DNA from: an uncultured Ignavibacteria bacterium
GTDB taxonomy: Bacteria; Bacteroidota; Ignavibacteria; Kapaibacteriales; Kapaibacteriaceae
Length of the DNA: 60,388 nucleotides
Direction of reading: 5' to 3'
Assembly: GCA_937870915.1 (NCBI GenBank)
Contig: CALMZQ010000130.1
Location: 1-60,388 of the forward strand
Made by a program: the position numbers and the translations under genes. Shown here in pieces: positions 7,829-27,419 of the stretch; the stretch's first letter is position 1; each line of letters begins with the position of its first letter. The notes beneath the pieces were generated by a model. It searched no databases. It saw nothing but the letters and a program-made list of their open reading frames with translations, and was not told where the DNA came from.

Positions 7829-9244
7829 TTACCGCGTAAGAGGAATGAATTCAGTTCTACGGTTCTGCGCCTTTCCTTCATCTGTGTCGTTAGATGCAAC
7901 CGGTTCCGCGTCTCCGTATCCTTTCACAGTGATGCGATCCGCCTTGATTCCACCACGCACGATCGCATCTCGGACGGCTTCTGCACGCTTCTGAGAGAGC
8001 TTTTTGTTGAAGTCGGGGTCTGATGTGCTGTTCGTGTTGTCTGTGTGTCCGCGCACTTCGATGGTCATCGACGGGAGCGCTTTCATCATTGTTACGATGT
8101 TATTGATGGCCACAGATGACGAGGCATCGAGTGTTGTTTTACCGTGATCGAAATTCACATTCAGAAGTGCGATAGCACCCACGTCTGGCGTGTTGTCATA
8201 CTTGAAGTTCGATGAAGCAGTGTCCTTGCCCCAGCAGAGTTTGAGCTTCACATCGTGCGAACCATAATCTTGAACCGGATATTCAATCACGTAGCTATTC
8301 TTGAGTCTACGATAGACATCTTCAAACATTGGTCGGAATTCAGCTGTACCGTAGATGTGTGTGTACGACCCACCGGTGCTGCGCGCGATGTCTTCCATGT
8401 ATCCCTCGTTAATACCGCTACCAAAGTCAACTGCACAAACAACAACGTTGGACTTGATCGCGCGCGAGATCATTTCATCGCGTGAGAGCTTGGATGAATT
8501 CTCTTGACCGTCTGTGAATATGATCACAGCCTTCCGTGTTCCCTTTGGTGCTGATTGATCGAGATGATCAATTGCAGCAACTACTCCAGAGTGAATGGCA
8601 GTGCCCCCTCCAAATCCCTCAAGTCCATTCTGCTTCAGCTTGCTTCGCACCTCTTCGGTGTTGTTCGAGAGTGGCGATTCTACTTCTGTGTGATGATCAT
8701 AGCGGACAAGAGCAACGGCATCCTGCGGTTGTTTCAAACCGAGGAAGTCTTCAACCGAAGCTTGCATTGCTCGTGCACGTGCGTCACCCATTGAGCCGGA
8801 GTTGTCCATTACAAGTGCAAAGGCCACCGGCTCCTTATCGCGCTCCGTTACTTCACGAATGGTGTAGTTCTTCACATCGCGCGATGTGCCATTAATGGTT
8901 TCCGTTACCTTACACCACAGAGCCTTGCCGTTTCCTTTTACACCACCGGTGTAGTAGGTGCCAGTTGAATCCAAAACGTGTGCATAGATCTTGACCGACT
9001 TGCCATCCCGTGTATCTACACGTGTTGCATTTAGAGCCACCTTCTGTGGCTTTTTATCCGGAAGAGTTGCAACTGTTCTCAGAAAGATTGGTGCATATCC
9101 CGGTGGTGGCGTTGCATCCGCAGTGGCCTCCGGTTCTTGCCAAGAAGCGCACCCGGTGAGCAAGACAACGACGAGAATGACGGAATGACGTAGTGACGTA
9201 ATGACGAGATGACGAGATGACGGTATGACGTTATGGCGTGTCAC
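7829..9244 (-). CDS. VWA-OmpA lipoprotein whose signal peptide is encoded by octamer repeats
   Basis: 471 residues. The signal peptide ends at lipobox LLTGC (Cys about residue 32). A von Willebrand A domain spans about residues 140-310 with an intact MIDAS (MDNSGSMGDARA, then GGTAIHSG and FTDGQ). A C-terminal OmpA peptidoglycan-binding domain carries IEVRGHTDNTNS and QKRAEAVRDAIV, with the final NRRTEF. Probably an outer-membrane lipoprotein tethered to the wall that displays an adhesive or scaffolding VWA domain. The first 27 residues are read from a GACGnnAT octamer array, so RHNVI, RHLVI and RHSVI recur every eight residues. The GTG at 9244 is the only start that gives a full signal peptide. 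Confidence 0.88.
   Translation of the reverse strand: MTRHNVIPSSRHLVITSLRHSVILVVVLLTGCASWQEPEATADATPPPGYAPIFLRTVATLPDKKPQKVALNATRVDTRDGKSVKIYAHVLDSTGTYYTGGVKGNGKALWCKVTETINGTSRDVKNYTIREVTERDKEPVAFALVMDNSGSMGDARARAMQASVEDFLGLKQPQDAVALVRYDHHTEVESPLSNNTEEVRSKLKQNGLEGFGGGTAIHSGVVAAIDHLDQSAPKGTRKAVIIFTDGQENSSKLSRDEMISRAIKSNVVVCAVDFGSGINEGYMEDIARSTGGSYTHIYGTAEFRPMFEDVYRRLKNSYVIEYPVQDYGSHDVKLKLCWGKDTASSNFKYDNTPDVGAIALLNVNFDHGKTTLDASSSVAINNIVTMMKALPSMTIEVRGHTDNTNSTSDPDFNKKLSQKRAEAVRDAIVRGGIKADRITVKGYGDAEPVASNDTDEGKAQNRRTEFIPLTR
9170..9242. repeat. GACGnnAT octamer tandem array
   Basis: Nine units run from 9170 to 9242; the first is 9 nt, the rest 8 nt: gacgagaat, gacggaat, gacgtagt, gacgtaat, gacgagat (twice), gacggtat, gacgttat and a decayed ggcgtgtc. 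Read on the minus strand, 24 nt equals eight codons, which gives the RHxVI periodicity of the lipoprotein signal peptide. Related arrays lie at 48024-48140 and 49376-49500. Confidence 0.88.
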
Positions 9245-9284
9245 TGGAGTGCTCGTGATGTGGTTATGGCGTTGTTAATGCTGG

Positions 9285-11150
9285 TCAGGGGATCGCTGCG
9301 TCAAGTTGACGGGTGATGCGATCCTTAGGGTCCAAACGGCGCGCAAGATCACGATATCTGCGGAAACCAGCAGTATCGGTAAATGCGTCAAGTTTGTAAT
9401 ACGCCATCGTACCAAAGCCGGCGAGTGCGGTTTGTTGGAGCCCCTTATCCAGCCGTTCCATTCTACCTGCGAGACTGGAAACGAGTTCGTTCACACCAGC
9501 GGTGCCCTCGCGTTGCTGGTACTTGGAAGTGTCCTTCACCAAACGAACGAGCGGTCCGGCAGGACGTCTGTCATATCCAACAGCAAATCCCTGCTCATCT
9601 TGCAAAAGCTCGGGTGTGATATAGACAGGCCTATCTGGGTTTGCGGTTAAAAGTGCATTCAGGAGCGCAACAAACCGTTGCTGAATGATCCGTACGTTTG
9701 CCTGGTTTGTGTTGAAGGCATCACCATTGGATTCAAACATTTGTAGGTAGGGCATAAACGCCTCTACCTCCGGCTGCACACGTTTCATCACGTCGGGATA
9801 TCGCTGTAGGAGGTAGGGGGCATACCAGGTACGCCGTAAGAGTTCTTTGTCGATCACCGTGATATCTGTCCGCTCCTTCTGTACAACCTGACGGTACCAT
9901 GCTGCCGAACAGAAATAGTCCCATTGACGTGTGAGGATGATTGCGTTTGGCTCGGCATTGTCGAACACCCACGAAGTGTAGTTGTCAACGGCCGTGTGCC
10001 TCGACCGATCCTGTTGTTGCAAACCAACAACCACGGCAAAAAGCGGAAGGGCCAAAGCTGCCCAATACGAGCCAGATGGAAGTTTCTTCATCAGAGGTGG
10101 GAGGCCAAGGCAGAACAGAAGTGCTGCAACAAGGATGGTTGGCAGGAAATAGGGTTCGAGATCGGGAATAGCATAACCAAGCGAGATGCCGAGATTGCCA
10201 ATGATGAGGGTAATGAGGGCTAGTGCAAGCCGACGCTGACCCGTAACCAACCGCCAGAGCCCTATGGATGCCGGAATAAAACCAACCCACAAAAAAGTTG
10301 ATGCAAGGAGCGCCCAGAACATCGAAACGTTATCTGAGAACGCCTTCTTGTCGCTGAACATCCACACACCGAACTGTGTGCCTTTCACGTGATATAGGAA
10401 GGCTGAGAGATCTCGGTGCACCATGCCCCAGTTGATAGGGGGCTCTTGGGCACTCCGCAATGGAAGAATTGCGTAGAGGGCAACACCAACTAATGCCGGG
10501 ACTATTACCACCGCCCATGAACGTAGCCGTGACTTGCGATCCTGAGTACCGGAGAGCCAGAGTAGCAGAAGGCCCGGTGCAAGAAATGCCGATGATAGGT
10601 GGTTGGCCAGCATAAGGCCGTAGAGTAGTCCGGTCAGTGCTGTCCACCGCTGAGCGTGGTCACTGCTACGTACACTCTTCACAGCAAACAGCAACGTCAA
10701 CGAGAATAGAAGAAGGTGAAGCGAATAAACCTCAATCGATGTTGCCTGGGACCACACAACGCTACTCCAACCGAGCATCAGAGCACCCGTAGCAGCAATG
10801 ATCGAATAGAGTTGATTTGTGCCAACGCCATAAACCCACTGCAAGACATTCAACATGAGTAGGTAGGTAATGCTAACTGCAGAGGCTACCCATACGCCTG
10901 CGAGAACGTTAAGTGCGGAGATCGGGGAGCCCCATGACATCATTGTCCACACATGGCCAAGGAGGGTAAACAATGGATAGCCCGTGGGGTGGGCAACTCC
11001 TAGTGTTGTACACGCGGCGGCCAACTCGCCACTATCGGTATACATCAGACCAGGTGCCATTGTTATGGCATAGGTCACAAAAACAAGAAAGCCGAGGACA
11101 GCTGCCTGGAGACCAGGGGAGGCAAGTCCTCGGCCGATGATGTTCTTCAT
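9285..11150 (-). CDS. DUF2723 polytopic membrane protein (intact copy)
   Basis: 621 residues from the ATG at 11150, which lies 22 nt after the stop of the upstream gene; the open frame continues to 11213. It has about ten membrane segments in the first 400 residues and a soluble C-terminal part. The DUF2723 hallmark is present near the N terminus (APGLMYTDSGELAAACTTLGVAHPTGYPLFTLLGHVW), comparable to GT-C/PMT-type glycosyltransferases in which an Asp-Ser/Cys-Gly-Glu loop faces the periplasm. A glycosyl-transfer role is inferred from fold similarity only. The left boundary of the 6,011-bp duplication falls inside this gene at 9627, so this copy keeps its native 3' end and the second copy does not. 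Confidence 0.87.
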   Translation of the reverse strand: MKNIIGRGLASPGLQAAVLGFLVFVTYAITMAPGLMYTDSGELAAACTTLGVAHPTGYPLFTLLGHVWTMMSWGSPISALNVLAGVWVASAVSITYLLMLNVLQWVYGVGTNQLYSIIAATGALMLGWSSVVWSQATSIEVYSLHLLLFSLTLLFAVKSVRSSDHAQRWTALTGLLYGLMLANHLSSAFLAPGLLLLWLSGTQDRKSRLRSWAVVIVPALVGVALYAILPLRSAQEPPINWGMVHRDLSAFLYHVKGTQFGVWMFSDKKAFSDNVSMFWALLASTFLWVGFIPASIGLWRLVTGQRRLALALITLIIGNLGISLGYAIPDLEPYFLPTILVAALLFCLGLPPLMKKLPSGSYWAALALPLFAVVVGLQQQDRSRHTAVDNYTSWVFDNAEPNAIILTRQWDYFCSAAWYRQVVQKERTDITVIDKELLRRTWYAPYLLQRYPDVMKRVQPEVEAFMPYLQMFESNGDAFNTNQANVRIIQQRFVALLNALLTANPDRPVYITPELLQDEQGFAVGYDRRPAGPLVRLVKDTSKYQQREGTAGVNELVSSLAGRMERLDKGLQQTALAGFGTMAYYKLDAFTDTAGFRRYRDLARRLDPKDRITRQLDAAIP

Positions 11151-11172
11151 GGGTCGAGCGGAGAGTGGGAGA

Positions 11173-11880
11173 TCAGCGAGTAATAACCACCGGAGAGGCC
11201 GACATGGAGCCATCAGCCGACGTCATGATTAGGCGATACGTACCGGATGCAAGGCCACTCAAGGGAAGGGTAGCTACTGTTGACGCAGGCACACCATAGG
11301 AGCGTACAATGTTTCCAGAGGCATCGTAGAGGCCAATCGTAGTGATTGTTGGCAAAACATCGCCACGAACCGAAACTGATTCTGTTGCCGGCAGAGGACT
11401 AACCGAGAGACCGATCTCGGATGCATCGCGGACGGATGTTGAAGGGGCGATCTTGAAGGTAACGGAGAAGTTGAGTTTGTCGTTGGTGTTGGTCTTATCG
11501 AACAACGAAACCTGGACAAGGCTCGTGCCTTCCGTGCCATGAGGGGTAAGATCTACGTAGAGAGGAAGGGTTCCACCAACGCTAAGTACTTGTCCGTCGC
11601 GGATATAGGGATCATCTCCCGGACCCGGGTACAGGGACCAACATGTATTCATACATAGCTGAGCTGTGTGATCAAGTGATAGGCCGTTGAGGTCGTACGA
11701 GAAGTACAATTCCTTAGCTGTGTTGTTGAGGTTCCGAATGGTGCCCTCGCGCTTCACCGTTCCTCCGCCGGGTGTTCCAGAGATGGTTTCACCCTGAAGC
11801 CAGTCTATGGTGTACGTCTGAGCACTGGCAGACATGGAAAGGAGGAGTCCTGCAACAAGCGCAAGTACATGAGTTTTCAT
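11173..11880 (-). CDS. Secreted T9SS-sorted protein with a Cys pair (copy 1)
   Basis: 235 residues from the ATG at 11880. The open frame continues to 12021, but this start gives a clean signal peptide (MKTHVLALVAGLLLSMSASAQ). The N-terminal half is an all-beta domain with one Cys pair in LCMNTCW (C-x3-C). The last 75 residues, from ISPLPATES-like SVSPLPATESVSV through GLYDASGNIVRSY to LASGTYRLIMTSADG, fit a type A T9SS sorting domain. The family of the N-terminal domain is not recognised. It is divergent from the TlpA-like gene and just upstream of the DUF2723 gene on the same strand. The Cys pair makes it a possible thiol client of the neighbouring thioredoxin-like proteins, which is inference. 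Confidence 0.8.
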   Translation of the reverse strand: MKTHVLALVAGLLLSMSASAQTYTIDWLQGETISGTPGGGTVKREGTIRNLNNTAKELYFSYDLNGLSLDHTAQLCMNTCWSLYPGPGDDPYIRDGQVLSVGGTLPLYVDLTPHGTEGTSLVQVSLFDKTNTNDKLNFSVTFKIAPSTSVRDASEIGLSVSPLPATESVSVRGDVLPTITTIGLYDASGNIVRSYGVPASTVATLPLSGLASGTYRLIMTSADGSMSASPVVITR

Positions 11881-11912
11881 AATTTGACGTCCCTTGGATT
11901 CAATGCGTTCTG

Positions 11913-11920
11913 CAAACCTA
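11913..11920 (-). promoter_or_regulatory. Candidate -7 box (TAGGTTTG on the minus strand)
   Basis: Perfect match to TAnnTTTG about 32 nt upstream of the ATG at 11880. The -33 region is weak. It is duplicated at 17924-17931. Confidence 0.4.
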
Positions 11921-11992
11921 CTACATGCGGGCAAATTCCCGAACGAGTAGAGCATATGACGCCGAAACCACTTTTTTGTGACAGGAGAATTC

Positions 11993-12505
11993 GTGAAAAG
12001 GTTCGTACTGGCGGCCATCATCGCCTTTGTTTCGCTCTCCGGAGTGGTTTGCGCTCAAGATACTTCTTCGGCCCGTCTGCCTTCTGTAAAGATCCGGAGT
12101 GTTACCGGAGATCTGATCAATACAGCAGACATCAGCACGGACAACAGGCCCGTTGTGGTGAGTTTTTGGGCTACATGGTGTAAGCCGTGTTTGCAGGAAT
12201 TGCAGACATATCACGGACTCTACGAGGAGTGGCAGGAAAAGTACGGGGTAAAGCTGGTAGCTGTGTCGATCGACGATTCCCGCAATGCGTCCAAGGTAGC
12301 CCCCGTTGTAAAATCGCGGAACTGGAAGTATGATGTTTTGCTCGACATCAACCAAGAGTTCAAGCGCGCAATGAATGTGAACAACGTCCCGCATACCTTC
12401 GTGATCATGAATGGTAAGGTTGTGTTTTCCCATAGTGCATATTCGTACGGCGACGAAGATGAACTGGAAGAACTCTTCAAGAAACTCACGGGCAAAGAAG
12501 GATAA
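11993..12505 (+). CDS. TlpA/ResA-like thioredoxin-fold exported protein (copy 1)
   Basis: 170 residues. The GTG at 11993 has AGGAG at 11983-11987 as ribosome binding site with 5 nt spacing, which favours it over the GTG at 11978. The signal peptide (KRFVLAAIIAFVSLSGVVCAQ) exports it to the periplasm. The thioredoxin fold contains VVVSFWATWCKPCLQEL with the redox-active WCKPC and the cis-Pro segment NNVPHTFVI. TlpA-like proteins reduce or isomerise disulfides outside the cytoplasm. It is 3 nt upstream of the DUF6029 gene, and Omp28 follows, so the three form a likely operon. Its exact partners are unknown. Confidence 0.87.
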   Translation: MKRFVLAAIIAFVSLSGVVCAQDTSSARLPSVKIRSVTGDLINTADISTDNRPVVVSFWATWCKPCLQELQTYHGLYEEWQEKYGVKLVAVSIDDSRNASKVAPVVKSRNWKYDVLLDINQEFKRAMNVNNVPHTFVIMNGKVVFSHSAYSYGDEDELEELFKKLTGKEG

Positions 12506-12508
12506 TAC

Positions 12509-14188
12509 GTGAAGGTGTTCATTGCTGGAATTGTGGCCCTTGTGGTGCTTTCGCTACCCACATTTGGTCAAGGTATCGACATTCAGGACATCGGTACCAT
12601 CAGTGGGTCCCTCCAGTCCGATATCCAAACGTATACGGAAGACACCATTATCGGAGCCCCAGAGGTACCGGAACGGCTCCTCTCCAATACGTTCTTCAAC
12701 CTCTTGTTCACCCGAGGCAAGTTCACGGCGGGTATTCGGTTCGAATCCTATCAGAACCCACTGCTCGGCATCGACCCACGTTATGGTACGTCGGGTAGCG
12801 GTACAGGTCTCGGTATACCGTATCGTTTTGCCTCGTACACCGACGACATCTTTGAGGTTACAGCCGGTAACTTCTATGAGCAGTTTGGTAGTGGTATGAT
12901 CTTTCGCACCTACGAAGAACGCAACCTTGGATTCGATAACTCTATCGATGGTCTGCGTATGCGGTTCATTCCAACGCCGGGTCTAAAGATCACGGGTCTT
13001 ATCGGTCGGCAACGTGCGTTCTGGGAATTGAGCCGAGGCATTATGAGAGGGGGCGATCTGAGTCTCGACCTCAACGAGATCGGAGACTCACTGCTTCCGA
13101 GCAACATGCACCTTACGCTTGGCGCAAGTGTGATGAGCAGGTATCAGGCTGACGATCAGGATCTTTTAAAGATCCCGGAGAATGTGCTCGCATGGTCCAC
13201 TCGTGCGCACTTTATGTATGCCGACTTCTCGCTCGAACTTGAATATGCCTACAAGATCAATGACCCGAGCGCTGCCAATGTGCTCTCGTTCAATCCTGGA
13301 GACGCCCTGTACCTTAATGCATCGTATGCCGCTTCGGGTCTTGGATTGAACTTCGCTGCAAAGCGAATCGACAACATGGACTTCCGAAGTGACAGAACAG
13401 CCACGGGATTTGCACAGCAGGTGAACTATCTGCCAGCGCTAACCAAACAACATACGTGGCGACTCATCACGCTCTATCCATACGCAACGCAGCCAACTGG
13501 TGAGTTTGGCATGCAGGGCGACATCTCTATTACGATCCCCAAGGGCTACGGGCTTGGGAACGATGAGACGATGATCACGTTGAACGCTTCGGTGATCCAC
13601 GCCATGGATACAACACACACCAGCCCCTTTACATATGACGTTGCTTTCTGGTGGGCAGATCGCATTTATTACCGAGACATGAACGTTGAGATCTCACGAA
13701 AATTCGGCAAGGATTTCAAAGCAACACTTGTCTACGTAAACCTCGATTACGATCAAGACATCATTGAGCGCAGGGCTTCGCCCAATGAAACACTTTATGG
13801 TGTGATCACCTCAAACTTCGTGTGCTTGGAGCTGTGGTTCAAGACGGCGAAAAACCAGAGCCTTCGAACGGAATTCCAGTTCATGTCCGTTTCTCATCAA
13901 CCTGGTGCGCAACTCGCCCTTCAGAATGGAAATTGGGTGATGGCGCTCGCTGAATACACAATCTCTCCGCACTGGTACTTTACCGTGTTTGACGAATACA
14001 ATTACGGCAATGCCGATCCCACCCTTCAGGTGCACTATCCGAACGCTAGCCTTGCATACAATGCCGGAGCATTACGAGTACAAGGTGGGTATGGCCGCGT
14101 GCGTGGTGGTATTCTCTGTGTAGGTGGCATCTGTCGTCCGGTCCCAGCCTCGAATGGCATGACCCTTAACGTGACGTATTCCTTCTGA
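12509..14188 (+). CDS. DUF6029-like outer-membrane barrel protein (copy 1)
   Basis: 559 residues from a GTG start, with signal peptide MKVFIAGIVALVVLSLPTFGQ. The body is rich in alternating aromatic and polar beta strands and ends in NVTYSF, a terminal Phe typical of outer-membrane barrels. The segments FTAGIRFESYQNPLLG, AGNFYEQFGSGMIFRTYEERNLG and NSIDGLR resemble the Bacteroidota DUF6029 family, which often sits beside Omp28 genes. The function is not established. It is probably the membrane partner of the TlpA-like and Omp28 proteins that flank it. A late Cys pair (GGILCVGGICRP) lies near the C terminus. Confidence 0.78.
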   Translation: MKVFIAGIVALVVLSLPTFGQGIDIQDIGTISGSLQSDIQTYTEDTIIGAPEVPERLLSNTFFNLLFTRGKFTAGIRFESYQNPLLGIDPRYGTSGSGTGLGIPYRFASYTDDIFEVTAGNFYEQFGSGMIFRTYEERNLGFDNSIDGLRMRFIPTPGLKITGLIGRQRAFWELSRGIMRGGDLSLDLNEIGDSLLPSNMHLTLGASVMSRYQADDQDLLKIPENVLAWSTRAHFMYADFSLELEYAYKINDPSAANVLSFNPGDALYLNASYAASGLGLNFAAKRIDNMDFRSDRTATGFAQQVNYLPALTKQHTWRLITLYPYATQPTGEFGMQGDISITIPKGYGLGNDETMITLNASVIHAMDTTHTSPFTYDVAFWWADRIYYRDMNVEISRKFGKDFKATLVYVNLDYDQDIIERRASPNETLYGVITSNFVCLELWFKTAKNQSLRTEFQFMSVSHQPGAQLALQNGNWVMALAEYTISPHWYFTVFDEYNYGNADPTLQVHYPNASLAYNAGALRVQGGYGRVRGGILCVGGICRPVPASNGMTLNVTYSF

Positions 14189-14244
14189 ACGTAACAAAGA
14201 CAACGGCTTGGTGGTCAGTACAACACCAAACGGAGACTTCCCAC

Positions 14245-15132
14245 ATGAAAATCCTTCTTCTCGCGCTAACCCTCGCAACGGCATTGATGATCAATGCTTG
14301 TGATATTATTGAGGCACCCTACCTCAAAAATCCCATTGATCCGGCTGATACGTTGTTGAAGGATACATCAAACGTTGTCGCCCGAACTGAGGGGTTGCAG
14401 AACGTCCTCCTTGAGGACTATACGGGGCATACGTGTGGCAACTGCCCGGAGGCTGCGGATATCGCTGCTTCCATTGCGGCAGCAAATCCATCCCGCGTGA
14501 TCGTAACGGCAATTCATGCCGGAGGCTTTGCATTGCCGGAACTGCCGGACTATCCGTATGATTTTCGGACAGAGGCTGGGACCACGCTCGACGAGACATT
14601 TAAGATCAGTCGAGCCGGCAATCCAAACGGTTTGGTTAATCGCGCCAAATACAATACACGGTTCATCCTTGGTCAAAACAACTGGGTCCCGGCTGTTGCA
14701 GCTCAATTGGCACTTTCGCCACGCATCGATCTTGATCTGAGTCACACCTACCATGCAGAAGATCGAACACTTGTAGCCACTGTTGAGGCTACGTATCTCG
14801 CTGAGGGTGAAGCAGACTATTCCCTAGTAGTCTGGATAACGGAGAACGGTATTGTACAGGACCAAAAGGACTATCGCCGTACGCCATCACATGTCGAAGA
14901 GTATGAATTTGAGCACGTACTGCGTGGCTCCATGAACGGCACGTGGGGAGATTCTCTCAGCGCAAAGGTTGAACCGGCCGGGACAAAGATCAAGAAGGTT
15001 CTTCGCTACACCATTCCGGATGGAGTGGATTGGAATCTTGCAAACTGCGAGCTCGTTGCCTATGTGATTCGCCGTAAGGACGATCAAACTCGCGACGTGC
15101 TTCAAGTGGTAAAGCAGGCCTTTAGACCTTAA
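14245..15132 (+). CDS. Omp28-family lipoprotein with thioredoxin-like CGNC motif (copy 1)
   Basis: 295 residues. The signal peptide ends at lipobox LMINAC (Cys 19), so it is a predicted lipoprotein. Residues about 54-100 show the Omp28 hallmark VLLEDYTGHTCGNCPEAADIA, a thioredoxin-like fold with a C-G-N-C motif. The C-terminal half is all beta. Omp28 was described as an outer-membrane lipoprotein in Porphyromonas; its activity is not defined. It follows the DUF6029 gene by 56 nt and overlaps the convergent Wzi-like gene by 4 nt. Confidence 0.87.
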   Translation: MKILLLALTLATALMINACDIIEAPYLKNPIDPADTLLKDTSNVVARTEGLQNVLLEDYTGHTCGNCPEAADIAASIAAANPSRVIVTAIHAGGFALPELPDYPYDFRTEAGTTLDETFKISRAGNPNGLVNRAKYNTRFILGQNNWVPAVAAQLALSPRIDLDLSHTYHAEDRTLVATVEATYLAEGEADYSLVVWITENGIVQDQKDYRRTPSHVEEYEFEHVLRGSMNGTWGDSLSAKVEPAGTKIKKVLRYTIPDGVDWNLANCELVAYVIRRKDDQTRDVLQVVKQAFRP

Positions 15133-15637
15133 TAGCCAACACGGATCTCAAAGGATCCGAAAAAGAAGTTCTCGGGCATATTTCCACCGTTGCGATTCGT
15201 GTATCCAACGCGGAGGTCTGTAAAGACGTTCGGAAACCACTCTGCAGAAAACCAGAGTCGGACGCGCCGCTGATAACTCAGGTTGCCGCGCAGGAAGGTG
15301 TTGCCTGCAAGGCCATCGCCATCACCGCGCAACATATCGCCCCCTACATTCCCTACGGCTACAAGTATCCCGGATCCCGGATAGTTGGGATCTTCTGCAG
15401 CTTGGATGTTGCCGGTGCTATCGAGGAAGTTCTCTCCGTGACGTGTATAGTCTAGGTCCAATCGAACGAAGGTTCGTGGACTGAACCAATGCCGAGCCTG
15501 AAACGCAACACGGTCTGAGTTGGGCTGAAGGTCGTAGCCAACCGGCGCACCAAATGTTGTGTACGATGCATTGATGCTACGGTGAGAGAATGTAAACGGG
15601 TCAACGCGAGCATACTCTAAAGACACAAGGGAACGGG
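15129..15637 (-). pseudogene. Truncated Wzi-like barrel gene (C-terminal fragment at the duplication junction)
   Basis: Identical to the last 169 codons of the intact gene at 21140-22795, but the 5' 382 codons are missing because the duplication joint at 15638 replaces them with DUF2723 sequence. The first possible start is an internal GTG at 15626. Without a signal peptide the product could not reach the outer membrane, so the fragment is almost certainly non-functional. Confidence 0.93.
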
Positions 15638-17161
15638 AGGCCTATCTGGGTTTGCGGTTAAAAGTGCATTCAGGAGCGCAACAAACCGTTGCTGAATGAT
15701 CCGTACGTTTGCCTGGTTTGTGTTGAAGGCATCACCATTGGATTCAAACATTTGTAGGTAGGGCATAAACGCCTCTACCTCCGGCTGCACACGTTTCATC
15801 ACGTCGGGATATCGCTGTAGGAGGTAGGGGGCATACCAGGTACGCCGTAAGAGTTCTTTGTCGATCACCGTGATATCTGTCCGCTCCTTCTGTACAACCT
15901 GACGGTACCATGCTGCCGAACAGAAATAGTCCCATTGACGTGTGAGGATGATTGCGTTTGGCTCGGCATTGTCGAACACCCACGAAGTGTAGTTGTCAAC
16001 GGCCGTGTGCCTCGACCGATCCTGTTGTTGCAAACCAACAACCACGGCAAAAAGCGGAAGGGCCAAAGCTGCCCAATACGAGCCAGATGGAAGTTTCTTC
16101 ATCAGAGGTGGGAGGCCAAGGCAGAACAGAAGTGCTGCAACAAGGATGGTTGGCAGGAAATAGGGTTCGAGATCGGGAATAGCATAACCAAGCGAGATGC
16201 CGAGATTGCCAATGATGAGGGTAATGAGGGCTAGTGCAAGCCGACGCTGACCCGTAACCAACCGCCAGAGCCCTATGGATGCCGGAATAAAACCAACCCA
16301 CAAAAAAGTTGATGCAAGGAGCGCCCAGAACATCGAAACGTTATCTGAGAACGCCTTCTTGTCGCTGAACATCCACACACCGAACTGTGTGCCTTTCACG
16401 TGATATAGGAAGGCTGAGAGATCTCGGTGCACCATGCCCCAGTTGATAGGGGGCTCTTGGGCACTCCGCAATGGAAGAATTGCGTAGAGGGCAACACCAA
16501 CTAATGCCGGGACTATTACCACCGCCCATGAACGTAGCCGTGACTTGCGATCCTGAGTACCGGAGAGCCAGAGTAGCAGAAGGCCCGGTGCAAGAAATGC
16601 CGATGATAGGTGGTTGGCCAGCATAAGGCCGTAGAGTAGTCCGGTCAGTGCTGTCCACCGCTGAGCGTGGTCACTGCTACGTACACTCTTCACAGCAAAC
16701 AGCAACGTCAACGAGAATAGAAGAAGGTGAAGCGAATAAACCTCAATCGATGTTGCCTGGGACCACACAACGCTACTCCAACCGAGCATCAGAGCACCCG
16801 TAGCAGCAATGATCGAATAGAGTTGATTTGTGCCAACGCCATAAACCCACTGCAAGACATTCAACATGAGTAGGTAGGTAATGCTAACTGCAGAGGCTAC
16901 CCATACGCCTGCGAGAACGTTAAGTGCGGAGATCGGGGAGCCCCATGACATCATTGTCCACACATGGCCAAGGAGGGTAAACAATGGATAGCCCGTGGGG
17001 TGGGCAACTCCTAGTGTTGTACACGCGGCGGCCAACTCGCCACTATCGGTATACATCAGACCAGGTGCCATTGTTATGGCATAGGTCACAAAAACAAGAA
17101 AGCCGAGGACAGCTGCCTGGAGACCAGGGGAGGCAAGTCCTCGGCCGATGATGTTCTTCAT
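15617..17161 (-). pseudogene. DUF2723 gene truncated by the duplication
   Basis: Second copy of the 9285-11150 gene, with identical sequence from the ATG at 17161 to the joint. After ANPDRP the frame enters Wzi-like sequence out of frame, adds PVPLCL and stops at 15617. It keeps about 508 of 621 residues and all membrane segments but loses about 114 residues of the soluble C-terminal part. It may still be translated. Whether it folds is unknown. Confidence 0.9.
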
Positions 17162-17183
17162 GGGTCGAGCGGAGAGTGGGAGA

Positions 17184-17891
17184 TCAGCGAGTAATAACCA
17201 CCGGAGAGGCCGACATGGAGCCATCAGCCGACGTCATGATTAGGCGATACGTACCGGATGCAAGGCCACTCAAGGGAAGGGTAGCTACTGTTGACGCAGG
17301 CACACCATAGGAGCGTACAATGTTTCCAGAGGCATCGTAGAGGCCAATCGTAGTGATTGTTGGCAAAACATCGCCACGAACCGAAACTGATTCTGTTGCC
17401 GGCAGAGGACTAACCGAGAGACCGATCTCGGATGCATCGCGGACGGATGTTGAAGGGGCGATCTTGAAGGTAACGGAGAAGTTGAGTTTGTCGTTGGTGT
17501 TGGTCTTATCGAACAACGAAACCTGGACAAGGCTCGTGCCTTCCGTGCCATGAGGGGTAAGATCTACGTAGAGAGGAAGGGTTCCACCAACGCTAAGTAC
17601 TTGTCCGTCGCGGATATAGGGATCATCTCCCGGACCCGGGTACAGGGACCAACATGTATTCATACATAGCTGAGCTGTGTGATCAAGTGATAGGCCGTTG
17701 AGGTCGTACGAGAAGTACAATTCCTTAGCTGTGTTGTTGAGGTTCCGAATGGTGCCCTCGCGCTTCACCGTTCCTCCGCCGGGTGTTCCAGAGATGGTTT
17801 CACCCTGAAGCCAGTCTATGGTGTACGTCTGAGCACTGGCAGACATGGAAAGGAGGAGTCCTGCAACAAGCGCAAGTACATGAGTTTTCAT
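17184..17891 (-). CDS. Secreted T9SS-sorted protein with a Cys pair (copy 2)
   Basis: Identical to the 235-residue protein at 11173-11880, including signal peptide, LCMNTCW pair and C-terminal sorting domain. The upstream region with its TAGGTTTG box (17924-17931) is also duplicated, so this copy should be expressed. It lies upstream of the truncated DUF2723 copy. Confidence 0.8.
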   Translation of the reverse strand: MKTHVLALVAGLLLSMSASAQTYTIDWLQGETISGTPGGGTVKREGTIRNLNNTAKELYFSYDLNGLSLDHTAQLCMNTCWSLYPGPGDDPYIRDGQVLSVGGTLPLYVDLTPHGTEGTSLVQVSLFDKTNTNDKLNFSVTFKIAPSTSVRDASEIGLSVSPLPATESVSVRGDVLPTITTIGLYDASGNIVRSYGVPASTVATLPLSGLASGTYRLIMTSADGSMSASPVVITR

Positions 17892-18003
17892 AATTTGACG
17901 TCCCTTGGATTCAATGCGTTCTGCAAACCTACTACATGCGGGCAAATTCCCGAACGAGTAGAGCATATGACGCCGAAACCACTTTTTTGTGACAGGAGAA
18001 TTC

Positions 18004-18516
18004 GTGAAAAGGTTCGTACTGGCGGCCATCATCGCCTTTGTTTCGCTCTCCGGAGTGGTTTGCGCTCAAGATACTTCTTCGGCCCGTCTGCCTTCTGTAA
18101 AGATCCGGAGTGTTACCGGAGATCTGATCAATACAGCAGACATCAGCACGGACAACAGGCCCGTTGTGGTGAGTTTTTGGGCTACATGGTGTAAGCCGTG
18201 TTTGCAGGAATTGCAGACATATCACGGACTCTACGAGGAGTGGCAGGAAAAGTACGGGGTAAAGCTGGTAGCTGTGTCGATCGACGATTCCCGCAATGCG
18301 TCCAAGGTAGCCCCCGTTGTAAAATCGCGGAACTGGAAGTATGATGTTTTGCTCGACATCAACCAAGAGTTCAAGCGCGCAATGAATGTGAACAACGTCC
18401 CGCATACCTTCGTGATCATGAATGGTAAGGTTGTGTTTTCCCATAGTGCATATTCGTACGGCGACGAAGATGAACTGGAAGAACTCTTCAAGAAACTCAC
18501 GGGCAAAGAAGGATAA
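18004..18516 (+). CDS. TlpA/ResA-like thioredoxin-fold exported protein (copy 2)
   Basis: Identical to 11993-12505: signal peptide, WCKPC active site, and the AGGAG ribosome binding site at 17994-17998. Being a complete second copy with its own upstream region, it doubles the gene dose. Confidence 0.87.
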   Translation: MKRFVLAAIIAFVSLSGVVCAQDTSSARLPSVKIRSVTGDLINTADISTDNRPVVVSFWATWCKPCLQELQTYHGLYEEWQEKYGVKLVAVSIDDSRNASKVAPVVKSRNWKYDVLLDINQEFKRAMNVNNVPHTFVIMNGKVVFSHSAYSYGDEDELEELFKKLTGKEG

Positions 18517-18519
18517 TAC

Positions 18520-20199
18520 GTGAAGGTGTTCATTGCTGGAATTGTGGCCCTTGTGGTGCTTTCGCTACCCACATTTGGTCAAGGTATCGACATTCAGGAC
18601 ATCGGTACCATCAGTGGGTCCCTCCAGTCCGATATCCAAACGTATACGGAAGACACCATTATCGGAGCCCCAGAGGTACCGGAACGGCTCCTCTCCAATA
18701 CGTTCTTCAACCTCTTGTTCACCCGAGGCAAGTTCACGGCGGGTATTCGGTTCGAATCCTATCAGAACCCACTGCTCGGCATCGACCCACGTTATGGTAC
18801 GTCGGGTAGCGGTACAGGTCTCGGTATACCGTATCGTTTTGCCTCGTACACCGACGACATCTTTGAGGTTACAGCCGGTAACTTCTATGAGCAGTTTGGT
18901 AGTGGTATGATCTTTCGCACCTACGAAGAACGCAACCTTGGATTCGATAACTCTATCGATGGTCTGCGTATGCGGTTCATTCCAACGCCGGGTCTAAAGA
19001 TCACGGGTCTTATCGGTCGGCAACGTGCGTTCTGGGAATTGAGCCGAGGCATTATGAGAGGGGGCGATCTGAGTCTCGACCTCAACGAGATCGGAGACTC
19101 ACTGCTTCCGAGCAACATGCACCTTACGCTTGGCGCAAGTGTGATGAGCAGGTATCAGGCTGACGATCAGGATCTTTTAAAGATCCCGGAGAATGTGCTC
19201 GCATGGTCCACTCGTGCGCACTTTATGTATGCCGACTTCTCGCTCGAACTTGAATATGCCTACAAGATCAATGACCCGAGCGCTGCCAATGTGCTCTCGT
19301 TCAATCCTGGAGACGCCCTGTACCTTAATGCATCGTATGCCGCTTCGGGTCTTGGATTGAACTTCGCTGCAAAGCGAATCGACAACATGGACTTCCGAAG
19401 TGACAGAACAGCCACGGGATTTGCACAGCAGGTGAACTATCTGCCAGCGCTAACCAAACAACATACGTGGCGACTCATCACGCTCTATCCATACGCAACG
19501 CAGCCAACTGGTGAGTTTGGCATGCAGGGCGACATCTCTATTACGATCCCCAAGGGCTACGGGCTTGGGAACGATGAGACGATGATCACGTTGAACGCTT
19601 CGGTGATCCACGCCATGGATACAACACACACCAGCCCCTTTACATATGACGTTGCTTTCTGGTGGGCAGATCGCATTTATTACCGAGACATGAACGTTGA
19701 GATCTCACGAAAATTCGGCAAGGATTTCAAAGCAACACTTGTCTACGTAAACCTCGATTACGATCAAGACATCATTGAGCGCAGGGCTTCGCCCAATGAA
19801 ACACTTTATGGTGTGATCACCTCAAACTTCGTGTGCTTGGAGCTGTGGTTCAAGACGGCGAAAAACCAGAGCCTTCGAACGGAATTCCAGTTCATGTCCG
19901 TTTCTCATCAACCTGGTGCGCAACTCGCCCTTCAGAATGGAAATTGGGTGATGGCGCTCGCTGAATACACAATCTCTCCGCACTGGTACTTTACCGTGTT
20001 TGACGAATACAATTACGGCAATGCCGATCCCACCCTTCAGGTGCACTATCCGAACGCTAGCCTTGCATACAATGCCGGAGCATTACGAGTACAAGGTGGG
20101 TATGGCCGCGTGCGTGGTGGTATTCTCTGTGTAGGTGGCATCTGTCGTCCGGTCCCAGCCTCGAATGGCATGACCCTTAACGTGACGTATTCCTTCTGA
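18520..20199 (+). CDS. DUF6029-like outer-membrane barrel protein (copy 2)
   Basis: Identical to the 559-residue protein at 12509-14188. It starts with GTG 3 nt after the TlpA-like stop, and the barrel-type C terminus is intact. Confidence 0.78.
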   Translation: MKVFIAGIVALVVLSLPTFGQGIDIQDIGTISGSLQSDIQTYTEDTIIGAPEVPERLLSNTFFNLLFTRGKFTAGIRFESYQNPLLGIDPRYGTSGSGTGLGIPYRFASYTDDIFEVTAGNFYEQFGSGMIFRTYEERNLGFDNSIDGLRMRFIPTPGLKITGLIGRQRAFWELSRGIMRGGDLSLDLNEIGDSLLPSNMHLTLGASVMSRYQADDQDLLKIPENVLAWSTRAHFMYADFSLELEYAYKINDPSAANVLSFNPGDALYLNASYAASGLGLNFAAKRIDNMDFRSDRTATGFAQQVNYLPALTKQHTWRLITLYPYATQPTGEFGMQGDISITIPKGYGLGNDETMITLNASVIHAMDTTHTSPFTYDVAFWWADRIYYRDMNVEISRKFGKDFKATLVYVNLDYDQDIIERRASPNETLYGVITSNFVCLELWFKTAKNQSLRTEFQFMSVSHQPGAQLALQNGNWVMALAEYTISPHWYFTVFDEYNYGNADPTLQVHYPNASLAYNAGALRVQGGYGRVRGGILCVGGICRPVPASNGMTLNVTYSF

Positions 20200-20255
20200 A
20201 CGTAACAAAGACAACGGCTTGGTGGTCAGTACAACACCAAACGGAGACTTCCCAC

Positions 20256-21143
20256 ATGAAAATCCTTCTTCTCGCGCTAACCCTCGCAACGGCATTGATG
20301 ATCAATGCTTGTGATATTATTGAGGCACCCTACCTCAAAAATCCCATTGATCCGGCTGATACGTTGTTGAAGGATACATCAAACGTTGTCGCCCGAACTG
20401 AGGGGTTGCAGAACGTCCTCCTTGAGGACTATACGGGGCATACGTGTGGCAACTGCCCGGAGGCTGCGGATATCGCTGCTTCCATTGCGGCAGCAAATCC
20501 ATCCCGCGTGATCGTAACGGCAATTCATGCCGGAGGCTTTGCATTGCCGGAACTGCCGGACTATCCGTATGATTTTCGGACAGAGGCTGGGACCACGCTC
20601 GACGAGACATTTAAGATCAGTCGAGCCGGCAATCCAAACGGTTTGGTTAATCGCGCCAAATACAATACACGGTTCATCCTTGGTCAAAACAACTGGGTCC
20701 CGGCTGTTGCAGCTCAATTGGCACTTTCGCCACGCATCGATCTTGATCTGAGTCACACCTACCATGCAGAAGATCGAACACTTGTAGCCACTGTTGAGGC
20801 TACGTATCTCGCTGAGGGTGAAGCAGACTATTCCCTAGTAGTCTGGATAACGGAGAACGGTATTGTACAGGACCAAAAGGACTATCGCCGTACGCCATCA
20901 CATGTCGAAGAGTATGAATTTGAGCACGTACTGCGTGGCTCCATGAACGGCACGTGGGGAGATTCTCTCAGCGCAAAGGTTGAACCGGCCGGGACAAAGA
21001 TCAAGAAGGTTCTTCGCTACACCATTCCGGATGGAGTGGATTGGAATCTTGCAAACTGCGAGCTCGTTGCCTATGTGATTCGCCGTAAGGACGATCAAAC
21101 TCGCGACGTGCTTCAAGTGGTAAAGCAGGCCTTTAGACCTTAA
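20256..21143 (+). CDS. Omp28-family lipoprotein with CGNC motif (copy 2)
   Basis: Identical to the 295-residue protein at 14245-15132, with lipobox LMINAC and motif TCGNCP. It overlaps the end of the intact Wzi-like gene by 4 nt, the ancestral arrangement. Confidence 0.87.
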   Translation: MKILLLALTLATALMINACDIIEAPYLKNPIDPADTLLKDTSNVVARTEGLQNVLLEDYTGHTCGNCPEAADIAASIAAANPSRVIVTAIHAGGFALPELPDYPYDFRTEAGTTLDETFKISRAGNPNGLVNRAKYNTRFILGQNNWVPAVAAQLALSPRIDLDLSHTYHAEDRTLVATVEATYLAEGEADYSLVVWITENGIVQDQKDYRRTPSHVEEYEFEHVLRGSMNGTWGDSLSAKVEPAGTKIKKVLRYTIPDGVDWNLANCELVAYVIRRKDDQTRDVLQVVKQAFRP

Positions 21144-22795
21144 TAGCCAACACGGATCTCAAAGGATCCGAAAAAGAAGTTCTCGGGCATATTTCCACCG
21201 TTGCGATTCGTGTATCCAACGCGGAGGTCTGTAAAGACGTTCGGAAACCACTCTGCAGAAAACCAGAGTCGGACGCGCCGCTGATAACTCAGGTTGCCGC
21301 GCAGGAAGGTGTTGCCTGCAAGGCCATCGCCATCACCGCGCAACATATCGCCCCCTACATTCCCTACGGCTACAAGTATCCCGGATCCCGGATAGTTGGG
21401 ATCTTCTGCAGCTTGGATGTTGCCGGTGCTATCGAGGAAGTTCTCTCCGTGACGTGTATAGTCTAGGTCCAATCGAACGAAGGTTCGTGGACTGAACCAA
21501 TGCCGAGCCTGAAACGCAACACGGTCTGAGTTGGGCTGAAGGTCGTAGCCAACCGGCGCACCAAATGTTGTGTACGATGCATTGATGCTACGGTGAGAGA
21601 ATGTAAACGGGTCAACGCGAGCATACTCTAAAGACACAAGGGAACGGGAGGCCTCTCCTGGCTTGCCCAGTGCCTGGGAAGCTCCTATTTGATAGGCGAA
21701 TTTGTTTTGATTTCCACCTGATGATGAATCTCCAAGTGTAGCGTAGTTCAAGTCGTCGATGATAAAAGACCCGTAGATCATCATTCCTTTGAATGGCCGC
21801 ACAGCAAGATCAAACCCCATCATCGAATTGTCGTTCAAACTCCGCTCTTGAGTGCTGAGTCCGGCAGACACAAAAAATGCGAGCGGGTTGAGATAAACAA
21901 AATCTAGCCCCCTGCCCCAATACACGATCATATCACTTACGGCAAAGCTCAACCAATCAACAGGATCGATAGCCAGACGATGCGTAGCAATGTATTTGCC
22001 GGTAACAGCCGCACCCGACGTGTCAACTCCATTCGCAGCAGAGTGAGTCATGGTGAACCGGACACTCTTGTACGGCACGTCTATCAGAAGACCGTCTAGC
22101 AAAGGGGCTTCAATGGAGTGAACAAAGTTGTCGATCGGACTGAATCCGAACTGCATTGCTTCTCGTCCAAACCGCACACGGAGCCAGCTGCTCTGATACT
22201 GAACGTAGCCAATGTAGCGATCGAAGAACGCACTATCTTCGATGGAGAACTTCAGTGTTCGTGCCAAAGTGGGGTCTGTTTTAGCGATCTGTGCAGGATC
22301 TCCGGCCAGCCTGATGCCGTTGGAAAGATCGAGGAAGTATCCAAAGTTCCCACCAAGCGACCCCATAAATCGTACGGCTGGGCGCATGAGCAGGAACGGA
22401 TCTGCTATTGCGTTATCGCTATAATACCCCGGACGCATCATGAGGGAGATGTCGCCTTGAATACGAGCAATGCTGTCCGCGTACACAAGTCCACGGAACC
22501 GACCGCTTGTTGACTCTGCAAACTCCAGGTCTTCTGTCAAGGGGGCATTCAGCAACACGGAGTTGTAATACGACCGGATGTATCTGCCGAAGGCGTTGGC
22601 AGAATCTGTGCCCTGCTCTGTGAGCGTGTACGCGGACTGTGGCCACACTGCGTAGGTTCCCAACGGCGCAGAGCCGTCTACAGCGCGCAGGAGCTGCATA
22701 TCCATGGAGACACGCTCGGCGTTCACGTCTGCATTCTGCGCAAGCATAGGGGCCAGCGCAACTGTCAAACAAGCAAGTGCGAGAAGTAGTCGCAT
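21140..22795 (-). CDS. Wzi-like outer-membrane beta-barrel protein (intact copy)
   Basis: 551 residues with signal peptide MRLLLALACLTVALAPMLAQ. The rest is strand-rich, with GRFRGLVYADSIARIQGDISLMMRPGYYSD, VRFGREAMQFGFSP, a VYWGRGLDFVYLNPLAFF segment and a C-terminal FEIRVGY. The GRE..G and YLNP-type motifs resemble the capsule-assembly Wzi barrel family seen in Bacteroidota. A role in surface polysaccharide attachment is inferred from that family. Its start overlaps the SPOR gene stop as TAATG, so the two are translationally coupled. The duplication's right end (21649) falls at about codon 383, and only this copy is complete. Confidence 0.75.
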   Translation of the reverse strand: MRLLLALACLTVALAPMLAQNADVNAERVSMDMQLLRAVDGSAPLGTYAVWPQSAYTLTEQGTDSANAFGRYIRSYYNSVLLNAPLTEDLEFAESTSGRFRGLVYADSIARIQGDISLMMRPGYYSDNAIADPFLLMRPAVRFMGSLGGNFGYFLDLSNGIRLAGDPAQIAKTDPTLARTLKFSIEDSAFFDRYIGYVQYQSSWLRVRFGREAMQFGFSPIDNFVHSIEAPLLDGLLIDVPYKSVRFTMTHSAANGVDTSGAAVTGKYIATHRLAIDPVDWLSFAVSDMIVYWGRGLDFVYLNPLAFFVSAGLSTQERSLNDNSMMGFDLAVRPFKGMMIYGSFIIDDLNYATLGDSSSGGNQNKFAYQIGASQALGKPGEASRSLVSLEYARVDPFTFSHRSINASYTTFGAPVGYDLQPNSDRVAFQARHWFSPRTFVRLDLDYTRHGENFLDSTGNIQAAEDPNYPGSGILVAVGNVGGDMLRGDGDGLAGNTFLRGNLSYQRRVRLWFSAEWFPNVFTDLRVGYTNRNGGNMPENFFFGSFEIRVGY

Positions 22796-23526
22796 TAACG
22801 CTTCGTAACCGTTGGCTTACACTTGCATACTGCGCGTACAGATTCGAGGTCTTTGAGAGCTTCAGGCTCTGTCTCGTACTCTCCAACACTTACGATGTAG
22901 CGCGTTTTGTTCTTCAATTGCTCCGTCGTGAGTCGGGCACGCATCCGCTTCTTCTTGAACTGCGCCACAAGTCCGTCTGCCTCATCCTTGCTGAACGTAG
23001 TGCGCGTAACAAGCGTGTATGACTTTGCTGCGGTCTTCACAGGTGTCTCTACAACGGGCTCTGGCTTCTTTGGTGTAGGAACTGCAACTGAACGGTCTCC
23101 GGGTGGTGGTACACCAACGGTGGAGCGCATAACATCGTAGACAACAGAAAGCAGTTCGCTCTGTGAATATTGCTCTCGCATAATGGCGAACGTCTTCTTT
23201 GCCTTTTCTGCCTCGCCCTTGGTAGCCGCGAAGATCACCAGTCGGGCAAGTGCATCGTCGGCCCACTCACTCTTCGGATAGGCAACTACGATACGCTCCA
23301 AGAGCGGTGCTGCCTTCTTTGGATCTTCAACAAGAGATGCGTGAAGAAAGAGCACGCCCGGATCGTCAGGATTATCGATCAAGAGATCTGGTAGCGCCTT
23401 TTTTGCATCAGACGTCCATCCCGACGCTACCTGTTGAATGTATTGCCTCACACCAACCGTTTGCGCGTTAACGTGTGCGGTGATGATAACGAGAAGCGTA
23501 AGGACGATGATTGTGCGTCGGGGCAT
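22795..23526 (-). CDS. SPOR-domain protein with TPR-like repeats
   Basis: 243 residues with signal peptide MPRRTIIVLTLLVIITAHVNAQ. Residues about 30-135 contain helical repeats (DDPGVLFLHASLVEDPKKAAPLLERIVVAYPKSEWADDAL and so on), typical of TPR/Sel-like or YbgF-type modules. A Pro/Lys-rich linker follows. Residues about 165-243 (KSYTLVTRTTFSKDEADGLVAQFKKKRMRARL and TRYIVSVGEYETEPEA) fit a SPOR domain, which binds denuded peptidoglycan at division sites. Probably a periplasmic cell-wall protein. It is divergent from murG (57 nt apart) and coupled to the Wzi-like gene. Confidence 0.83.
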   Translation of the reverse strand: MPRRTIIVLTLLVIITAHVNAQTVGVRQYIQQVASGWTSDAKKALPDLLIDNPDDPGVLFLHASLVEDPKKAAPLLERIVVAYPKSEWADDALARLVIFAATKGEAEKAKKTFAIMREQYSQSELLSVVYDVMRSTVGVPPPGDRSVAVPTPKKPEPVVETPVKTAAKSYTLVTRTTFSKDEADGLVAQFKKKRMRARLTTEQLKNKTRYIVSVGEYETEPEALKDLESVRAVCKCKPTVTKR

Positions 23527-23583
23527 GGTACTTGGATAACGAGAATGGGGAAGGACGGCTGAAATTACGGAAGAGGGCCTATT

Positions 23584-24744
23584 TTGGTAGTGCTTCCTCC
23601 CTTTGAGTGTGAGAACGTGATCGCAACAGTGGCCCCTTCAGAGAATTTTCGTGTGGTTGTTGCTGCCGGAGGTACCGGCGGACACATCTTCCCCGCTGTT
23701 GCAGTGGTTGAGCAATTGCAGGCACTCACCAACGGCAGTTGTGACGTTGTATTTATGGGAAGCTCCGACCGAATGGAAACCACGCTGGTTCCCAAACTAG
23801 GCTATCGTTACGTTCCTATGCCGATAGCCGGGTTTAAGGGGCTAGCCCTCTCAACGCTTACCTTGCCGATGAAGGTGCTCACATCCATTCGTATTGCACG
23901 CGACGTTATTCGTCAGCATCAACCGCATGTTGTTGTGTGTACAGGAGCCTACATCAGCTACCCGGTAGGCGTTGCTGCCATCCGCGAACACATTCCGCTT
24001 GTTGTACTCGAAAGCAATCTCAATCCCGGTAAAACCAATTCACGACTAGCACCAAAAGCTACGGCCGTTGTTCTTGCGTTTGAAGAAAGTAGGAGATTTT
24101 ATCCCGACTCAATGACGTCGAGACTACATGTGCTTGGCAATCCCGTGCGAACCCAAATTGATGTTTCGAAACCTGTGGACCAAGCGCGCCTTACCTACGG
24201 TCTCGACCCAAACAGGGCTACGGTACTCGTGTTTGGTGGAAGTCTTGGTGCGCACACAATCAATACATCCATAGAGCGTGCCCTTCCAGAGATCGCTGAT
24301 CGACCGTGGCAACTGTTGTGGCAAACAGGGAAGGGGTACACCCCTCCGTCTGTCTTACCCCCTAACGTAACGATGCTGCCGTTCTTAGAAGACATGGGAA
24401 GCGCATATGCAGCAGCTGATCTCGTTGTCTCTCGCTCCGGTGCCACAACTATTGCTGAACTTGGAATCGTTGGGAAGCCGGCTATTCTCGTGCCTCTTGC
24501 CACAGCTTCAACCAATGAACAACAACACAATGCCCGCGTCTTAGAAAAGCACCACGCTGCTATTGTGATCTCCGACAACGTCCTGCGAGAGATTCTTCTT
24601 CCTACCATAGATTCCGTCATGACCGACCAAAACAGGCGTAGCACAATGTCCAACGCCATGCTTTCTCTCGGAAAGCCCTTTGCAGCACATGATGCTGCTC
24701 GCCTCGTGCTCCGAATCGGTGATCGAGAAAGGGGCTCCTCATGA
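23584..24744 (+). CDS. murG: UDP-GlcNAc:lipid I N-acetylglucosaminyltransferase MurG
   Basis: GT28 enzyme that adds GlcNAc to lipid I to make lipid II on the inner face of the cytoplasmic membrane. It shows VVAAGGTGGHIFPAVAV, GSSDRMETTLVPKLGY, VCTGAYISYPVG, VFGGSLGAHTIN, LLWQTGKGY and SRSGATTIAELG, all matching MurG. The length of 386 is slightly long. The frame opens with TTG at 23584, which has GGAAGAGG (23569-23576) 7 nt upstream; GTG at 23617 or 23629 would give a more usual N terminus, so the start is uncertain. It overlaps the next gene by ATGA. No mur/fts cluster surrounds it. Confidence 0.95.
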   Translation: MVVLPPFECENVIATVAPSENFRVVVAAGGTGGHIFPAVAVVEQLQALTNGSCDVVFMGSSDRMETTLVPKLGYRYVPMPIAGFKGLALSTLTLPMKVLTSIRIARDVIRQHQPHVVVCTGAYISYPVGVAAIREHIPLVVLESNLNPGKTNSRLAPKATAVVLAFEESRRFYPDSMTSRLHVLGNPVRTQIDVSKPVDQARLTYGLDPNRATVLVFGGSLGAHTINTSIERALPEIADRPWQLLWQTGKGYTPPSVLPPNVTMLPFLEDMGSAYAAADLVVSRSGATTIAELGIVGKPAILVPLATASTNEQQHNARVLEKHHAAIVISDNVLREILLPTIDSVMTDQNRRSTMSNAMLSLGKPFAAHDAARLVLRIGDRERGSS

Positions 24745-25238
24745 CTGATACCCTTCAGAAGGTAGCATTACCGGCAGAATTCCATGTGAAGCTCGACTTC
24801 TATTGGCAGTCCATTGCTGTGTATGCTGTTACACTTATCGGGTACGTCATGATCAAGGCGGTATGGGACAGCACCATTCAACAGGGCCTTGTTAATGTAG
24901 TGCTGACCGATCCTGTTGTAGTACTTCTCGGTTTCTTTGTTCTCATCACTACTTTTTCACTTGTCGTGAATAGTGTAAGCAGACGTTCGATCATTATCAG
25001 CGACGATGCAGTGACGTATCTCAGTCGATTTCATGAACGTACCTTCCAACTCGACGAAATTGAGAAGATCGTTATCGGCAGCGAACGGAGAACGAATGTT
25101 CGCGGAGTGCTTGCCCTCGTCCGCATATACATACGAGGCCGCAGACGGCCTCTGCGTGTAAGGCCGGGTCTTTACGAAAACGAACACGGACTTGTGAGTG
25201 CGCTTTTAACACTTCGGCATCATTCACAACATTCATGA
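24741..25238 (+). CDS. Small membrane protein with bacterial PH-like domain
   Basis: 165 residues. Two hydrophobic segments (about 26-45 and 58-80) are followed by a C-terminal domain of beta strands (RRSIIISDDAVTYLSRFHERTFQLDEIEKIVIGSERR and VRIYIRGRRRPLRVRPG) that resembles a bacterial PH domain. The function is unknown. The start overlaps the murG stop (ATGA) and its stop overlaps the next start in the same way, so the three are coupled in one operon. Confidence 0.65.
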   Translation: MTDTLQKVALPAEFHVKLDFYWQSIAVYAVTLIGYVMIKAVWDSTIQQGLVNVVLTDPVVVLLGFFVLITTFSLVVNSVSRRSIIISDDAVTYLSRFHERTFQLDEIEKIVIGSERRTNVRGVLALVRIYIRGRRRPLRVRPGLYENEHGLVSALLTLRHHSQHS

Positions 25239-25828: not shown

Positions 25829-25842
25829 GCAGGATCGGAACC

Positions 25843-26340: not shown

Positions 26341-26346
26341 CGTCTC

Positions 26347-26402: not shown

Positions 26403-26412
26403 AACTTCGTGT

Positions 26413-27393: not shown

Positions 27394-27419
27394 GGTAGTG
27401 CTACGGTAAAATTGGCAAT

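Follow-up and report, generated by a model that had tools for sequence, protein, structure and literature searches.

Does a perfect 6-kb tandem repeat in the draft genome of an uncultured bacterium record a duplication carried by living cells, or only the way in which an assembler walked its graph? The question is raised by a contig of an uncultured Ignavibacteria bacterium of the Kapaibacteriaceae (CALMZQ010000130.1, assembly GCA_937870915.1), which at its full length of 60,388 nucleotides forms our window and belongs to a 3.32-Mb genome in 233 contigs (97.34% complete, 0.89% contamination). A preliminary description had reported a 6,011-bp direct tandem duplication without base difference, and this is borne out over the whole repeat: with every base compared at offset 6011, positions 9627-15643 are identical to 15638-21654 over 6,017 bp, with zero differences, and the flanking base mismatches at either end of the identical run. 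The unit length and period is 6,011 bp, the orientation is direct and head-to-tail, and the extra 6 bp are AGGCCT, which is common to both parental breakpoints and to the joint between the copies (Table 1). The second-longest exact repeat in the window measures 65 bp (48109/49472), and chance as a source of a 6,017-bp repeat is not an issue. What is confirmed in this way is the assembled sequence; copy number in the cell is a separate matter.

Table 1. Positions in the window of the repeat units, breakpoints, joint, genes and contig-end overlap.
Feature	Positions	Strand	Basis or remark
Unit copy 1	9627..15637		Exact match to 15638-21648, offset 6011
Unit copy 2	15638..21648		Exact match to copy 1
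Left parental breakpoint AGGCCT, within TMEM260-like gene	9627..9632		Base comparison
Novel joint between copies, AGGCCT	15638..15643		30-bp joint sequence unique in window
Right parental breakpoint AGGCCT, within Wzi-like gene	21649..21654		Base comparison
TMEM260-like (PF11028) gene, intact, 642 aa, crosses left breakpoint	9285..11213	-	Pfam
Protein with weak T9SS C-terminal sorting domain (PF18962, below its cutoff)	11173..12021	-	Copy 2 at 17184-18032, identical
TlpA/ResA-like thioredoxin	11978..12505	+	Copy 2 at 17989-18516, identical
DUF6029 (PF19494)	12509..14188	+	Copy 2 at 18520-20199, identical
Omp28-like lipoprotein	14245..15132	+	PF11551 above cutoff; NCBIfam Omp28 model just under cutoff; copy 2 at 20256-21143, identical
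Wzi-like 3' fragment created by duplication, 165-aa open frame, without native start	15129..15626	-	Translation
TMEM260-like gene, truncated second copy, first 529 native residues plus 6 foreign	15617..17224	-	Translation
Wzi-like (PF14052) gene, intact, 551 aa, crosses right breakpoint	21140..22795	-	Pfam
Last 77 bases of the window, equal to the last 77 of contig C177	60312..60388		k=77 de Bruijn overlap

Each unit contains four complete genes, encoding a protein with a weak T9SS sorting domain, a TlpA/ResA-like thioredoxin, a DUF6029 protein and an Omp28-like lipoprotein. The translations of all four are identical between the copies, in agreement with the earlier statement that shared features are offset by 6011 and the encoded proteins are the same. 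That statement had gone on to read the event as seemingly harmless and dose-raising, given that each boundary gene keeps one intact copy. The intact copies are indeed there; harmlessness does not follow from them, because any direct tandem duplication gives this geometry, and a raised dose is at most a possibility.

The TlpA-like, DUF6029 and Omp28 genes form a conserved cassette, found at 11978-15132 of the window and in related loci (L004-L083). The gene immediately upstream of DUF6029 is TlpA in 50 of 73 testable loci, and the one immediately downstream is Omp28 in 59 of 70. Both proteins flanking DUF6029 carry CxxC motifs in their translations (CKPC and CGNC), which suggests that the DUF6029 protein may belong to a putative envelope thiol-redox module.

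What did the locus look like before the duplication? Both boundary genes are present in 9 of 80 related loci, and in all nine the genes are single copy and in the same order: TMEM260, T9SS-sorted protein, TlpA, DUF6029, Omp28, Wzi, continuing to SPOR and MurG in eight. The remaining 71 loci, which end at a contig boundary or have a different gene order and so lack one or both boundary genes, are neutral on order. One of the related loci (L014) runs from TlpA to MurG in order, together with a vWA-OmpA gene, and gave no TMEM260 or T9SS match. No second DUF6029 was found in the 80 loci within the DNA examined; for 34 of them this DNA extends beyond 6.1 kb to either side. Among 60 whole genomes searched for DUF6029, including the window's own, 49 matched, and two full-length matches occurred solely in its own genome; three others gave two partial matches each, at adjacent places and to consecutive parts of the query. 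Of the named relatives, a Candidatus Kapaibacterium MAG from Lac Pavin comes closest, its DUF6029 being 87% identical. Since relatives show the single-copy order and no second DUF6029, the duplication is, judged by gene content and order, derived in this genome, in a comparison whose collections hold one genome per species and whose closest DUF6029 is 87% identical. At 3.32 Mb, the genome also exceeds in size all ten listed genomes of its genus, which span 2.0-2.9 Mb and are 88-100% complete.

How the draft was assembled decides what the identity of the copies can mean. We examined 93 of the 466 contig ends, from 55 of the 233 contigs (1,081,232 of 3,324,208 bases), many contigs being represented by their first 20 kb only; contigs shorter than 3,000 bases did not enter any repeat count, which removed 27 of 81 contigs other than that of the window. 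End-to-end overlaps of at least 25 bases joined five pairs of these ends, and they were exactly 77 bases long in four and 32 in one. A de Bruijn assembly of short reads with k=77 leaves exact overlaps of just this length, and from them we infer the assembler itself; SPAdes commonly uses a k of 77. Just two exact repeats in the sampled third of the genome exceed 115 bp, the 6,017-bp repeat and one of 719 bp on contig C3. Both are direct with their copies close together, and no dispersed or inverted exact repeat above 115 bp was found in the same sample. Close direct repeats alone are the pattern of simple loops walked by an assembler. Widespread duplication in the draft was considered and rejected, the 719-bp repeat being the one other exact repeat above 115 bp in the parts of the 55 contigs.

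Other repeats were noted as well. On contig C3, positions 90172-91047 and 92020-92895 (8319-13399 of locus L142) form a second partial tandem duplication of 876 bp at 99.3% identity, 719 bp of it exact, which repeats the last ~240 codons of a gene that we take to be ClpC-like. A pair of small genes, similar but diverged, follows at the same offset of 1848, and ungapped identity falls to background beyond ~900 bp. Within the window, 48017-48211 and 49384-49574 align over 197 bp at 88%, covering an upstream region with many AATGAC-type repeats together with the first part of a signal-peptide-like frame, after which they diverge. Contig C1 encodes three consecutive proteins of 730-761 aa with similar C-terminal ends (20725-27428; 11284-17987 of locus L157); the outer two have 2,088 bp in common at 89% identity, and the middle one differs.

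The k-mer content of the window makes the consequence explicit. At k=78, the k-mer sets of the window, of three copies, of five copies, of a mixture of one-copy and two-copy chromosomes and of one copy plus a circle are identical, whereas a single copy alone lacks 71 k-mers, all from the joint. A single graph edge was probably the source of both copies, and identity therefore cannot date the event or show gene conversion. The preliminary description was right to list an assembly contribution among its readings of the identity; its other readings, a very recent event, amplification or gene conversion, lose their support with the k=77 fingerprint and the single edge. Perfect identity between tandem copies is uninformative about age when the draft comes from short reads. 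The evidence is the joint and not the identity, and the frequency of the joint is measurable from short reads alone. Our search of the literature on duplications and misassembly in MAGs returned nothing directly on point, which we do not offer as a claim of absence.

The joint itself is informative. Among 400,000 random junctions drawn from a single-copy version of the window, 0.16% share at least six bases, which makes blunt random ligation unlikely and points to a microhomology, or short-junction, tandem duplication. Homology between the breakpoints outside the six bases is slight. Rightwards from AGGCCT 14 of 18 bases match, a level reached by 0.4% of pairs sharing a 6-mer, and to the left 3 of 10 match, about chance. 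AGGCCT is palindromic, as are 1.3% of the 6-mer pairs in the window. Hairpin guidance of the breakpoints was rejected: of 200 shuffles, 172 folded as well as or better than the left breakpoint, 47 the right and 136 the joint, so that the right breakpoint folds best of the three sites yet is unremarkable. The palindrome thus lends no extra support to a hairpin route. Within 300 bp of the breakpoints, no word longer than 10 bp is shared between left and right, in direct or inverted orientation, or repeated in inverted orientation within the left, and repeat-mediated recombination was rejected on these comparisons. As for a transposon- or IS-mediated duplication, neither a transposase or integrase gene nor, in these same comparisons, terminal repeats were found at the ends of the unit. 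Pfam detected no mobile-element family among the 10 proteins scanned from the unit and its neighbourhood, and an origin from a mobile element or plasmid was rejected on this result together with the lack of a plasmid or viral-contig match. AGGCCT is also a StuI site, and the 60 kb contain 14 such sites, about the expectation of one per 4,096 bases; ligation of restriction fragments was set aside in view of this count and of a further AGGCCT inside the unit at 15116. The repeat has the features of a short-junction duplication: the copies are head-to-tail, the joint is too short for homologous recombination, and the arrangement in relatives points to a single-copy ancestor, with the parental order kept.

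We favour, at a probability of roughly 0.73, a microhomology-mediated direct tandem duplication that is present in some or all cells and whose loop was written twice by a k=77 short-read assembler. On this view the Kapabacteria lineage would have acquired one direct tandem duplication through linkage of the AGGCCT of the Wzi-like gene to that of the TMEM260-like gene, presumably by a template switch or another RecA-independent microhomology route. Some or all cells of the sampled population would carry the joint, which probably rests on real reads, and the k=77 de Bruijn assembler, meeting a simple loop, would have written the single graph edge of the unit twice. With six bases shared at the joint, one would expect to see it in a k=77 graph only where it was present in some of the molecules. 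We leave room for one exception, a scaffolding step that accepts short overlaps.

That exception belongs to the strongest competing explanation, which we nevertheless consider unlikely: the cell has one copy, and the joint is an artefact of a chimeric library or amplification molecule or of scaffolding on a short overlap. A chromosome with one copy would lack just 71 of the assembly's k-mers (k=78), the related genomes have one copy, and SPAdes scaffolding can join path ends on few-base overlaps. Against this, assemblers usually discard edges of very low coverage, and a scaffolding join presupposes two path ends, each terminating precisely at AGGCCT. Random joining reaches at least six shared bases 0.16% of the time, a figure that counts for less in that amplification chimeras can use microhomology too. 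Experience from culture also speaks for an artefact, since in a Salmonella chemostat study (PMC3411829), as far as the portion consulted describes them, five of eight tested duplication junctions were confirmed with a deduced cut-off of 11 bp, and candidates with 7, 9 and 17 bp were not; it is the 7- and 9-bp cases that lend weight to an artefact.

If the joint is real, how many copies does it connect? A published benchmark (PMC6052550) offers a guide in those of its tables and sections that we used. In simulation (its Table 5), SPAdes wrote two copies for every two-copy repeat, even where the repeat exceeded the insert, and regardless of whether paired ends were used. For true counts of three to five, its scaffolds often read two when the insert exceeded or approximated the motif; for motifs of 400 or 500 bp against a 250-bp insert, it wrote 0 for three to five copies and 2 for two. 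In real isolates its record on two-copy repeats exceeding the insert was mixed, several being restored and others missed. Because our 6-kb unit lies in the regime where motif clearly exceeds insert, the two copies printed are mild evidence that two are real, and an average of two copies across the population is accordingly the mildly favoured figure. Support from the benchmark for about two copies is weak, since its motifs are far shorter (in real genomes up to 612 bp, a size at which they were not restored, and in simulation up to 500 bp), and its reads come from isolates at 150-200x or simulation at 150x, not from a metagenome.

The same figures bear on ongoing amplification, in which part of the population would carry three or more copies that the assembler reports as two. 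The k-mer set is the same for three and five copies, and the benchmark's scaffolds often gave two for a true three to five when the insert exceeded or approximated the motif. The 6-kb unit falls instead where the motif clearly exceeds the insert, and there SPAdes wrote 0 for such counts (PMC6052550, in the simulations drawn on here); we regard amplification as improbable. Its adaptive version, in which some members of a natural, uncultured Kapabacteria population would have an actively amplified array of at least three copies, retained for the benefit of a higher dose of the TlpA-DUF6029-Omp28 envelope cassette, strikes us as very doubtful; if true, it would allow gene amplification to be observed directly in cells not grown in culture.

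Equally hard to credit is a circle of the unit beside a single chromosomal copy, which an assembler could not tell from a tandem, the k-mer set being identical to the window's. Replication, integrase and transposase families are absent from the 10 proteins scanned, the unit has no megablast match in 72,556 plasmid records, and the exact 34-base joint sequence has no match in viral contigs. Least probable of all are two long-read-resolved, truly identical copies, the product either of a duplication that happened very recently or of gene conversion still active, a reading that fits the exact identity over 6,017 bp and conflicts with the 77-base end overlaps and the lack of dispersed or inverted exact repeats above 115 bp in the sampled third, both of which point to short reads.

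A short-junction duplication with its loop written twice also resembles systems already described. As an assembly object, the locus is like the simple-loop tandem repeats in the de Bruijn assemblies tabulated in the parts of PMC6052550 used here, with one in-edge, one out-edge and a loop that, once walked, yields two identical copies; it differs in that our unit is ~10 times the largest tabulated motif and lies in a metagenome-type draft instead of an isolate. As a chromosomal rearrangement, it shares direct tandem copies with segmental duplications between long repeats such as rRNA operons and IS elements, but its joint shares 6 bp and no long repeat flanks the unit. The closest parallels are the short-junction duplications of E. 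coli and Salmonella. In E. coli, the portions of PMC3161906 bearing on junctions report microhomology at all 40 sequenced amplification junctions and 3-30 bp at the junctions of inverted complex events, and duplication is described as largely recA-independent, between microhomologies, in the passage of PMC2656507 that we cite. On the figures given in those portions, our 6-bp joint lies within the E. coli range of 3-30 bp (PMC3161906) and below the 11-bp Salmonella cut-off (PMC3411829). Unlike those cases, ours comes from an assembled draft of an uncultured bacterium, without selection, reads or culture; like them, it is a direct duplication of a kilobase unit, with few shared bases inside unrelated genes and the boundary genes each kept once. 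Most likely, then, the duplication is a known kind of event, one more short-junction duplication.
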